Origin: Pseudobdellovibrionaceae bacterium
GTDB lineage: Bacteria; Bdellovibrionota; Bdellovibrionia; Bdellovibrionales; Bdellovibrionaceae
Assembly: GCA_019637875.1 (NCBI GenBank)
Contig: JAHBUW010000001.1
Location: 434,001 to 498,000 of the forward strand
DNA length: 64,000 nucleotides
Direction of reading: 5' to 3'
Made by a program: the position numbers and the translations under genes. The first letter of the stretch is position 1. Each line of letters starts with the position of its first letter. Below are positions 50,451 to 52,877 of the stretch, piece after piece. The notes under the pieces are model-generated. The model made no database searches, was not told the DNA's origin, and saw only the letters and a program-made list of their open reading frames with translations.

Positions 50451-50960
50451 TTACTTATCTTTGGGCAGCGCCCGATTGATCGCTTCCGCGAGTTCGTGGA
50501 AGTAGTCCTTCTCGCGGAACGTGATGAAACGTTTGTTCTTGGGGTTCTCGCCGACGGAGTTCAGGTAGTTGCAGGCGTGATAGATGGGGCCGGCGATCCG
50601 GTGCGAGACGAGCAGCAGGAAGCTCATGATGATGAAGCTGACGGCGACGAGCACCATGACGAACCAGGGGAACATCAGGGAGTGCAGGCCTTCGATGGCT
50701 TCGACGAGATTCGCTTCGGTACCGCGTTTTTCGATCACGATCTGCGAAACCTGGAACAAGAAGAACGTCTCGTAGAAATAGAAGAGTGCGGTGACGATGA
50801 CGATCAGAAGCAGGCCCTGCACCATCACGCTGAGCTGGAAGCGGGGATTGATCAGGAGGATGCGACGGCGATTTGCCGCCGCTTTGGCTTGCTCGATGAT
50901 CGGATCGCTTGCGGTACCGGTTCCGGTGCTCTTCTTGGTGTCGTCGCCCACGGTTTTCAT
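50451..50960 (-). CDS. Two-helix membrane HAMP protein
   Basis: A 169-residue protein with two transmembrane helices (about 45-70 and 95-120) and a short HAMP-like cytoplasmic region starting SHRIAGPIYHACNYL. The N-terminal segment has INPRFQL just before the first helix. No kinase, methyl-accepting or GGDEF output follows. The same elements, VNKKFQL and SHKIAGPIY, occur in the C-terminal half of the LspA fusion 21 bp upstream, so the two domains are paralogous. It may be a sensor or adaptor that oligomerises with the fusion. Confidence 0.7.
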   Translation of the reverse strand: MKTVGDDTKKSTGTGTASDPIIEQAKAAANRRRILLINPRFQLSVMVQGLLLIVIVTALFYFYETFFLFQVSQIVIEKRGTEANLVEAIEGLHSLMFPWFVMVLVAVSFIIMSFLLLVSHRIAGPIYHACNYLNSVGENPKNKRFITFREKDYFHELAEAINRALPKDK

Positions 50961-50981: not shown

Positions 50982-51977
50982 TTAAGCGGAGTGTCTCGCG
51001 TTCGGGTCCGGAGAGGGCAGCGCTTCCACCGGCGTTTCGCGACCGACCTCGGGCGCGGCGGGCGCCAAAGGACCGCGCAGTTCCGTCATTTTGTCCTGAA
51101 TCTGGCGATGCAAGGCTTCGAGCTGTTTGAACTCGTCCTTCGCGCGGAGTTTCAGCGGTCGCATGTCCTTGCCGCTCTCCAGATTGCGTAAGGTCTCGAG
51201 CATGGAGCGCTCGAAAGCGTAAATGGGACCCGCGATCTTATGTGAGATGACTTTCCCCACCGTGAAGAGACCGAGCGAGAAACCGACGCTGATCAGGGCG
51301 AAGACCTGCGCGAACGGCATCACGTACTTGTCCAAGCGGGGATCGTTCTCGCCCAGCAGGTCGATCAGCGCGACGCGGATGTAGGTGAAGCTGAAAACCA
51401 TCGTCACGAGCGAGATTCCGAGGCCGACCCCGAGCAGGATCGCGCAGTATTTGAGCTGGAATTTCTTGTTCACCCAGTACTGCTTGCGGATGTTGTTTTC
51501 GGGCCAAATCAAGTCGCCGTCCTTGAAGACGCCGATCAGGATCAGGGCGTAGCCGACCCACTGAAGGGCGTCCGCGACGTTGAAGACCGGGGACTGCCAT
51601 CTTTCATTGCCGATGACGATGAAGTCGACGACTTCGCCCCACAGGATGCGGTCCGTGACGTTCCCCATGATGCCGCCGAGGACGATCGACAGACCCGTGC
51701 GGAGTTTCATGGTTTTGATCGGGAGCAGGAATTGGATCAAGGCGTAGATGCAAACCAGGAACGCGCCGGCAGTCGACAGCGACACGATCCGCAGGAATTC
51801 CGGCAGATTCGAGAACAGCCCGAGCATCGCGCCTTTGTTATGGTGAAGTACGAAATGCAAATACTCGTACTGCGAGACGGTGCCTTGAATACCGACGGCC
51901 CACATCTTCGACAGACGATCGAGCGCCCACGTCACCGCTAACGGAAAAAATACGACAACCCAGTCTTCTCTTCTCAT
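50982..51977 (-). CDS. lspA: Signal peptidase II (LspA) fused to a TM-HAMP module
   Basis: Residues 1-155 are lipoprotein signal peptidase: DRLSKMW near residue 20, LHHNKGAMLGLF (about 43-54), GGIMGNVTDRILWG with catalytic Asp109, and FNVADA with catalytic Asp136. Residues about 168-300 add VNKKFQL, two further transmembrane helices (about 177-200 and 220-243), then SHKIAGPIYAFERSMLE and a HAMP-like region ending DEFKQLEALHRQIQDK. LspA normally has about 160-170 residues and four helices, so this is an unusual fusion. Its gene starts 6 bp after the GGDEF gene's stop codon. ATG 51977 is the natural start. Confidence 0.88.
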   Translation of the reverse strand: MRREDWVVVFFPLAVTWALDRLSKMWAVGIQGTVSQYEYLHFVLHHNKGAMLGLFSNLPEFLRIVSLSTAGAFLVCIYALIQFLLPIKTMKLRTGLSIVLGGIMGNVTDRILWGEVVDFIVIGNERWQSPVFNVADALQWVGYALILIGVFKDGDLIWPENNIRKQYWVNKKFQLKYCAILLGVGLGISLVTMVFSFTYIRVALIDLLGENDPRLDKYVMPFAQVFALISVGFSLGLFTVGKVISHKIAGPIYAFERSMLETLRNLESGKDMRPLKLRAKDEFKQLEALHRQIQDKMTELRGPLAPAAPEVGRETPVEALPSPDPNARHSA

Positions 51978-51983
51978 GCCCCT

Positions 51984-52877
51984 TCAGGTTAAGGGCGTTG
52001 CCTTGGAACCCGCAATGGCGGTCTGATTTCGGCCACTTGTTTTGGCCGTATAGAGGGCTCGGTCTGCACTTTCGACAATCTGGGCTGGATCTTCGGCGTG
52101 ATCCGGATACGCGGCCAGACCCAGACTTAAATGGAGGCCGAGCTCCGCGCTCGCCTTCAGTCGTAGGCGTTCCGCGACTTCGAAGGCTTCTTCGGTTCCA
52201 GCTTCGGGCAGCAGAATCGCGAACTCGTCGCCGCCGTAGCGGCAGACCCAGTCAATCGCGCGCACGCTTTCGGTGAAGAGGCGCGAAAGTTTGCGCAGTA
52301 CTTCGTCGCCGTAGCTGTGTCCTTTCTCGTCGTTCATTTCTTTGAAGCGATCGAGGTCGATCATGAGGAGGGAGTAAGGACGGCGATGCCGGCGGGCGCG
52401 GCTGGATTCGCGCACCATCTGTTGCAGGAATCCGCGGCGATTCCAAAGGTGCGTGACCGGATCGGTCAGCGAGAGCTCTTGCCAGTATTGGCGGTCTTTC
52501 AACACGCGGGTCATCGCGAGCCCCTCGAGGACCGATTGGCGCAGCTCTTCGACGGCCCAAGGTTTGCGCAGGACACGGTGCGCGAGGTCGCGGTTCAAAA
52601 ATTGAATCAAGTCCGCTTCGGTCAGTTGTCCCGAGATCACCAGCCGCGCGGTGGTGGGCCAGTTGGCGCGGGCCTTCGCGAGCACTTCGAGCGCGCGTCC
52701 GTCCGCCAGCTGCAAATCGCAGAGAAACAGATCCGGCGCGGCCGCCTGAAAAATTTCGGACGAGGACGCGAAAAGCGCGTAATCGTAATCCGGCCCCAAC
52801 GCGCGGGTGAGCGCCCGGTGCTGATCCGTATCATCATCAAGAATCATAAGAGTTAGACGCCGGACCCCGGATGCCAT
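51984..52877 (-). CDS. Response regulator diguanylate cyclase (REC-GGDEF)
   Basis: An N-terminal receiver (about residues 8-120) has LMILDDDTDQ and the phospho-acceptor in LFLCDLQLADG, with a KPW motif. The C-terminal GGDEF domain (about 135-290) has SLTDPVTHLWNRRGF, MIDLDRFKEMND and CRYGGDEFAILLPEAG. RAID five residues before GGDEF is an inhibitory (RxxD) site. It should make c-di-GMP under phospho-control. It is first in a tight operon with the LspA fusion and the HAMP protein. ATG 52877 is used; an ATG at 52847 would remove ten residues. Confidence 0.9.
   Translation of the reverse strand: MASGVRRLTLMILDDDTDQHRALTRALGPDYDYALFASSSEIFQAAAPDLFLCDLQLADGRALEVLAKARANWPTTARLVISGQLTEADLIQFLNRDLAHRVLRKPWAVEELRQSVLEGLAMTRVLKDRQYWQELSLTDPVTHLWNRRGFLQQMVRESSRARRHRRPYSLLMIDLDRFKEMNDEKGHSYGDEVLRKLSRLFTESVRAIDWVCRYGGDEFAILLPEAGTEEAFEVAERLRLKASAELGLHLSLGLAAYPDHAEDPAQIVESADRALYTAKTSGRNQTAIAGSKATPLT

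Follow-up and report, generated by a model that had tools for sequence, protein, structure and literature searches.

A signal peptidase II fused to a HAMP-like membrane module and its candidate FQNC lipobox in Bdellovibrionota

The gene described here lies in a 64,000-nucleotide stretch of DNA (the window) from a Pseudobdellovibrionaceae genome (order Bdellovibrionales, phylum Bdellovibrionota). It encodes a signal peptidase II (LspA) domain that continues into two additional transmembrane (TM) helices and a segment resembling HAMP domains. Comparison of its homologues, and of the signal peptides encoded around them, suggests that the product is probably a second signal peptidase II (SPase II), acting beside the housekeeping LspA and dedicated to prolipoproteins of the FQNC type. 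No paper on an LspA with a HAMP domain in Bdellovibrio, or on an FQNC lipobox, was found in the open-access literature.

Architecture of the fused gene

The gene is a single intact open reading frame, arranged as follows in window coordinates.

50982..51977, minus strand: whole gene with an ATG start, 331 residues, LspA domain plus two TM helices plus HAMP-like segment; both halves are kept in 69 further loci
51513..51977, minus strand: LspA (SPase II) domain, residues 1–155; PF01252 match with E=5.6e-24 over residues 14–151, and 14/14 conserved LspA residues
51624..51626, minus strand: codon of catalytic Asp118 (VVDF), equivalent to Asp118 of Staphylococcus aureus LspA (PMC6952399); kept in nearly all homologues
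51570..51572, minus strand: codon of catalytic Asp136 (FNVAD), equivalent to Asp136 of S. aureus LspA; kept in nearly all homologues
51249..51482, minus strand: two extra TM helices, approximately residues 166–243; hydrophobic in the sequence and conserved in the module alignment
51078..51248, minus strand: HAMP-like segment, approximately residues 244–300, with invariant Gly250, Pro251 and Asp281; assigned by hhalign to HAMP (E=8.6e-4) and by conservation

The protein matches Peptidase_A8 (PF01252) of Pfam with 85.4 bits against a cut-off of 25. Its score with the NCBIfam equivalog model lspA (TIGR00077) is 57.7 bits, below the curated cut-off of 73.95, which suggests a paralogue that has diverged from the housekeeping enzyme, not its orthologue. 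The meaningful matches in a search of the PDB were lipoprotein signal peptidases only, including those of S. aureus and P. aeruginosa. The LspA domain is followed by a linker with conserved Trp158, Arg164 and Gln174, and then by the two hydrophobic helices; behind these, in frame with the LspA domain, stands 'SHKIAGPIYAFERSMLE...KDEFKQLEALHRQIQDKM'. The segment SHKIAGPIYAFERSMLETLRNLESGKDMRPLKLRAKDEFKQLEALHRQIQDKM follows the TM helices and precedes a variable tail. A structure model computed from three sequences had a predicted local distance difference test score (pLDDT) of 42; this was too low for use in a fold search.

The first-pass annotation had read the sequence as LspA fused to a two-TM module within one gene, and the homologues agree. 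Fused homologues were read and aligned over both halves at 53 loci at the level of the order or class and at 16 divergent loci elsewhere in the phylum, and both halves are unsplit in these. Moreover, matches over most of the query were obtained in nearly all genomes of the order that were searched, and many other families of the phylum yielded more divergent matches. Therefore, a frameshift in the reads or another fusion artefact is ruled out.

Active site and substrate pocket

In S. aureus LspA, Asp118 and Asp136 form the catalytic pair and 14 residues are highly conserved (PMC6952399). The window protein keeps all 14 (D20, K24, N47, G49, G102, N106, D109, R110, V116, D118, F132, N133, A135 and D136). 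By the same comparison, Asp136 is catalytic as first annotated, and its partner is Asp118; Asp109 (GNVTDR), to which that role had been given, is conserved yet non-catalytic. Most of the 14 residues are more than 90% conserved in an alignment of 70 sequences, in which rows L010 and L015 are incomplete and uninformative at the active site. Clear loss of the active site was observed only in L073, L074 and L075 (genomes G065, G074 and G098, of 1.4–2.0 Mb), whose fused LspAs are likely pseudoenzymes. These three loci keep the gene and its HAMP-like part despite the loss.

Alignment with six canonical LspAs identified residues near the active site that distinguish the two groups. After the conserved NxG, the fused group mostly has A-M-L and the canonical group A-A-F; GGA..GNY of canonical LspA is GGI..GNV in the fused group; and the residues three to four positions past catalytic Asp136 are Q-W in the fused group and I-V in the canonical enzymes. 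An extracellular loop of LspA, the flexibility of which depends on the NxG glycine, covers the substrate pocket, and the signal peptide is believed to be gripped by helices H2–H4 (PMC6952399). Mapped by homology alone, the changes in the fused group therefore plausibly affect substrate choice.

Distribution and ancestry

All genomes checked also had a canonical LspA or, for 23 of them, at least one LspA each. The window's genome encodes a separate canonical LspA at C1:407872-408300, which adjoins an Lgt gene. In a tree of 34 fused and six canonical LspA domains, the two sets are separated with support of 100/100. The coexistence of the canonical enzyme, together with this split, indicates that the fused LspA is an old paralogue of separate ancestry and that the housekeeping enzyme was not replaced. 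A pattern-based scan of 84,980 species genomes reached close relatives only.

Atypical lipoboxes beside the fused gene

The standard lipobox is given as [LV][ASTVI][GAS]C in PMC8689077. Signal peptides were counted here by one fixed rule. Outside the order, signal peptides encoded next to the divergent copies of the fused gene end in FNHC, YTHC, YTQC, YNQC, YNHC, FTQC, YQNC, LQNC or FQNC, and the atypical lipobox there has the general form [FYL][QNT][NHQ]C. The 170 kb surrounding divergent copies (L060, L061, L063, L064, L065, L066, L068 and L071) contain thirteen such lipoboxes. Since one homologous operon, which encodes a Tat-type protein and CxxCH proteins, is common to five of these loci, this linkage corresponds to approximately four independent cases.

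In the window's genome, six FQNC and 23 canonical signal peptides were counted in 400 kb (6/29 of those that are lipobox-like). FQNC-type signal peptides number one in 200 kb of G073 and three in 400 kb of G174, where all three are at the fused-LspA locus. The class is absent from the sampled near-complete genomes without the enzyme; zero atypical lipoboxes were found in 964 kb of G125, G156, G057 and G070, four genomes that yielded no fused gene. Two of these, G125 and G156, belong to the same genus as G174 and account for 600 kb. G125 also encodes a protein weakly homologous (E=8.5e-4) to one FQNC protein; this homologue has an ordinary signal peptide with no lipobox and adjoins a homologue of the Tat neighbour of that FQNC protein.

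Operons that combine FQNC-type lipoproteins with a Tat-signal protein (RRxFL) were found repeatedly, at L175 (15494-19865), L078 (4981-9979) and L209 (1424-4847). These operons also encode CxxCH or PSD-domain (DUF1592/1588/1585) proteins and form a conserved system. At L059 (5143-6570), a divergent neighbour of the fused LspA has FQNF at the lipobox position, with Phe replacing Cys.

Whole-genome counts of the FQNC motif

The window's genome contains 65 copies of the FQNC codon pattern, compared to 11 of the reversed control, and YQNC is not enriched there (2, compared to 4 for its control). In 80 genomes of the order or class that have the enzyme, FQNC codons number 2521 against 1078 for the control (2.3-fold), with an excess in 77/80. 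YQNC was tried as an alternative motif in the exception genomes and was discarded, with no clear enrichment. In ten genomes of the order that lack the fused gene or carry a strongly diverged one (G057, G065, G070, G074, G082, G090, G092, G094, G098 and G118), the counts are 87 for FQNC and 85 for the control. Only this contrast between groups was used, because the control differs from the FQNC pattern in dinucleotides; it is suggestive, although the genomes are not independent.

The pattern was also considered as a marker outside the order and was rejected, as 30 matches cut out from there contained no signal peptides and most were out of frame. Family f18 lacks an FQNC excess whether or not the enzyme is present, and the linked motifs there are mainly NHC and TQC variants. 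The codon pattern is therefore informative only inside the order.

The C-terminal HAMP-like module

The first-pass annotation had named the C-terminal half a HAMP module. The resemblance is supported by profile-profile comparison, in which the two are in register, and the family assignment is not: PF00672 of Pfam matched neither the window protein nor any of 29 module sequences. An hhalign comparison of the module profile with nine HAMP domains (from six E. coli proteins and three of the sampled loci) gave E=8.6e-4 and a probability of 24%, with the Pro and Asp-Glu anchors in register. Without the TM part, the comparison gave E=0.01, and 0/100 column shuffles scored as high. NCBIfam kinase and chemoreceptor models produced weak matches, below their cut-offs, over the HAMP-like region, and a PDB sequence search with the module profile returned chance membrane proteins only. 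The alignment of the 29 modules has invariant Q, G, P and D residues.

The two genes that flank the fused gene in the window are as follows.

50451..50960, minus strand: downstream gene, 169 residues, a free-standing two-TM HAMP-like module; BLASTP E=4e-7 to the fused C-terminal half, module profile E=4.7e-26
51984..52877, minus strand: upstream gene, 297 residues, a response regulator with GGDEF (PF00072 and PF00990); the same neighbour is found in six related loci

The fused gene is 6 bp from the upstream and 21 bp from the downstream gene. An alternative reading of the architecture is that the HAMP-like module either controls LspA activity or relays its state, such that lipoprotein maturation is tied to membrane signalling with no special class of substrates. 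The conservation of the HAMP-like segment, with its invariant G, P and D, and the response-regulator diguanylate cyclase that adjoins the gene in the window's lineage are consistent with this. However, no output domain follows the module in nearly all fused homologues, most loci are without a GGDEF neighbour, and small proteins that consist of the module alone occur as well. The linkage to atypical lipoboxes would also be left unexplained, and this alternative is considered unlikely. Regulation through the HAMP-like part is possible.

The window's genome has at least three free-standing modules, with an SHRIAGPIY signature and no peptidase, and G174 has one.

Window 50451-50960, G000:C1:34647 and G000:C7:186878-187279: free-standing two-TM HAMP-like modules in the window's genome
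L077 14551-15087 and L113 6260-6790: two-TM HAMP-like modules that likewise stand alone

A free-standing module gene beside the fused LspA was rejected as a general feature, as none of the loci read outside the window's genome showed it. At G000:C21:11788-14153, nine tandem HAMP domain matches lie mostly within one open frame of 872 residues.

In rare cases, fused homologues extend further. At L065 (3521-4978), the fused LspA runs in frame into an AhpC/TSA (peroxiredoxin-like) domain; this gene adjoins one for an LQNC protein with a DUF4331 domain. At L067 (2930-4894) and L068 (3963-5921), its reading frame continues into a predicted secreted protein that carries a CxxCH motif (TSCLTCH); in L060, L061 and L066, this protein is encoded by a separate next gene.

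Candidate function of the fused LspA

The atypical motif occupies positions −3 to −1, the part that SPase II removes, and the reader of the motif should therefore be a processing enzyme. The fused LspA, which looks competent for catalysis, is probably that enzyme; it would then do the FQNC cutting itself, with a specificity of its own. The diacylglyceryl-cysteine precursor would be bound in the usual LspA groove, and the Asp118/Asp136 pair would cut before Cys. The altered residues beside the active site would let the enzyme accept Asn, His or Gln at −1 as well as Phe or Tyr at −3. The predicted substrate class comprises FQNC in the window's genome and order, and FNHC, YNHC, YTQC, YQNC and LQNC variants in the wider phylum. 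The most likely role of the two-TM HAMP-like module is to dimerise, position or tune the enzyme.

Several observations weigh against this assignment. The ten genomes used as negatives are small, are mostly of one lineage, and several are incomplete; the active site was read in three. The enzyme is present without an FQNC excess in G075, G076 and G107, and the neighbours at most order-level loci lack an atypical lipobox. Two drafts of 160–190 contigs, G024 and G105, carry the motif and no fused gene was found in them; as their relatives have the gene, it was possibly lost in an assembly gap. G024 contains a four-gene operon (FQNC, YSNC, Tat and FHNC), two genes of which are homologous to the f18 fused-LspA operon (E=2.5e-49 and 1.5e-24); the operon can therefore carry the motif without a linked enzyme. 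Additionally, Lgt also reads the lipobox region and is duplicated in most genomes. The two paralogues of the window's genome, one of which is in a longer frame of approximately 420 codons, are located as follows.

G000:C11:159193-160161: Lgt paralogue
C1:407103-407744: Lgt paralogue

Lgt is the main alternative reader: either of its two paralogues, or some other factor, could recognise FQNC, with canonical LspA cutting FQNC too and the fused LspA only sharing the history of the motif. Both kinds of Lgt recur in most genomes tested, and G057 and G070, which keep one, have no FQNC excess, as this explanation would predict. However, G125 and G156 have two Lgt genes and lack the motif in 600 kb, the motif genes adjoin the fused LspA at several unrelated loci, and the identified neighbours at the motif-linked fused-LspA loci included no recognised Lgt. 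An Lgt-based code thus seems rather improbable.

Recognition of FQNC by the fused LspA itself is consistent with a broader scenario, which is put forward tentatively and is somewhat more doubtful than not. A parallel route of lipoprotein maturation, with a dedicated SPase II and its own FQNC lipobox, may have begun operon-linked to its substrates and later come to serve dozens of proteins genome-wide in the Bdellovibrio order, with the HAMP-like module as its regulator. Some lipoproteins could be matured separately from the rest by a second peptidase that has a recognition code of its own. Several of the predation proteins studied in Bdellovibrio are lipobox proteins (PMC11003981, PMC10127604). 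Prediction rules for the standard lipobox (PMC8689077) exclude Asn, His and Gln before Cys, and would miss the proteins described here. With one gene and one motif, the pairing is easy to test, and research on LspA inhibitors would also gain from LspA domains whose pocket residues are altered.

Comparison with known systems

More than one LspA per genome is known from Myxococcus xanthus, with four lspA copies of which two are in the myxovirescin cluster, and from a globomycin producer with two (PMC8689077). The fused protein might likewise be a resistance or backup LspA that tolerates natural inhibitors such as globomycin or myxovirescin, and residues near its pocket do differ. However, it is nearly universal in the order, no biosynthetic cluster was recognised near the gene, and the association with the motif would be unaccounted for, which makes this origin very improbable. 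The extra copies in M. xanthus and globomycin producers also differ in lying in antibiotic clusters or tandem housekeeping pairs, and the passages of PMC8689077 consulted mention no fused module.

Compared to LspA in general (PF01252), the fused protein has the same domain, 14/14 conserved residues including the Asp pair, and the same membrane setting. In contrast, it is double the length, carrying a HAMP-like segment and two additional TM helices, has changed conserved residues after NxG, in GGI..GNV and at the QW after Asp136, forms a distinct branch and coexists with canonical LspA. The module shares with the HAMP domains (PF00672) of chemoreceptors and histidine kinases a TM helix that leads into a Pro-containing helix, a Gly connector and a second helix led by D-E. 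It differs in its own SH.xAGPIYAFE signature, the missing Pfam match, the usual lack of an output domain and its free-standing occurrence.

Dedicated sorting enzymes with a cognate motif are also exemplified by the sortases. The myxosortase/MYXO-CTERM system (PMC11980579) is similar in that the distribution of a processing enzyme of the membrane or surface follows a short sorting motif on many otherwise unrelated proteins; the enzyme is unrelated to LspA, and the motif in the present case is an N-terminal lipobox variant.
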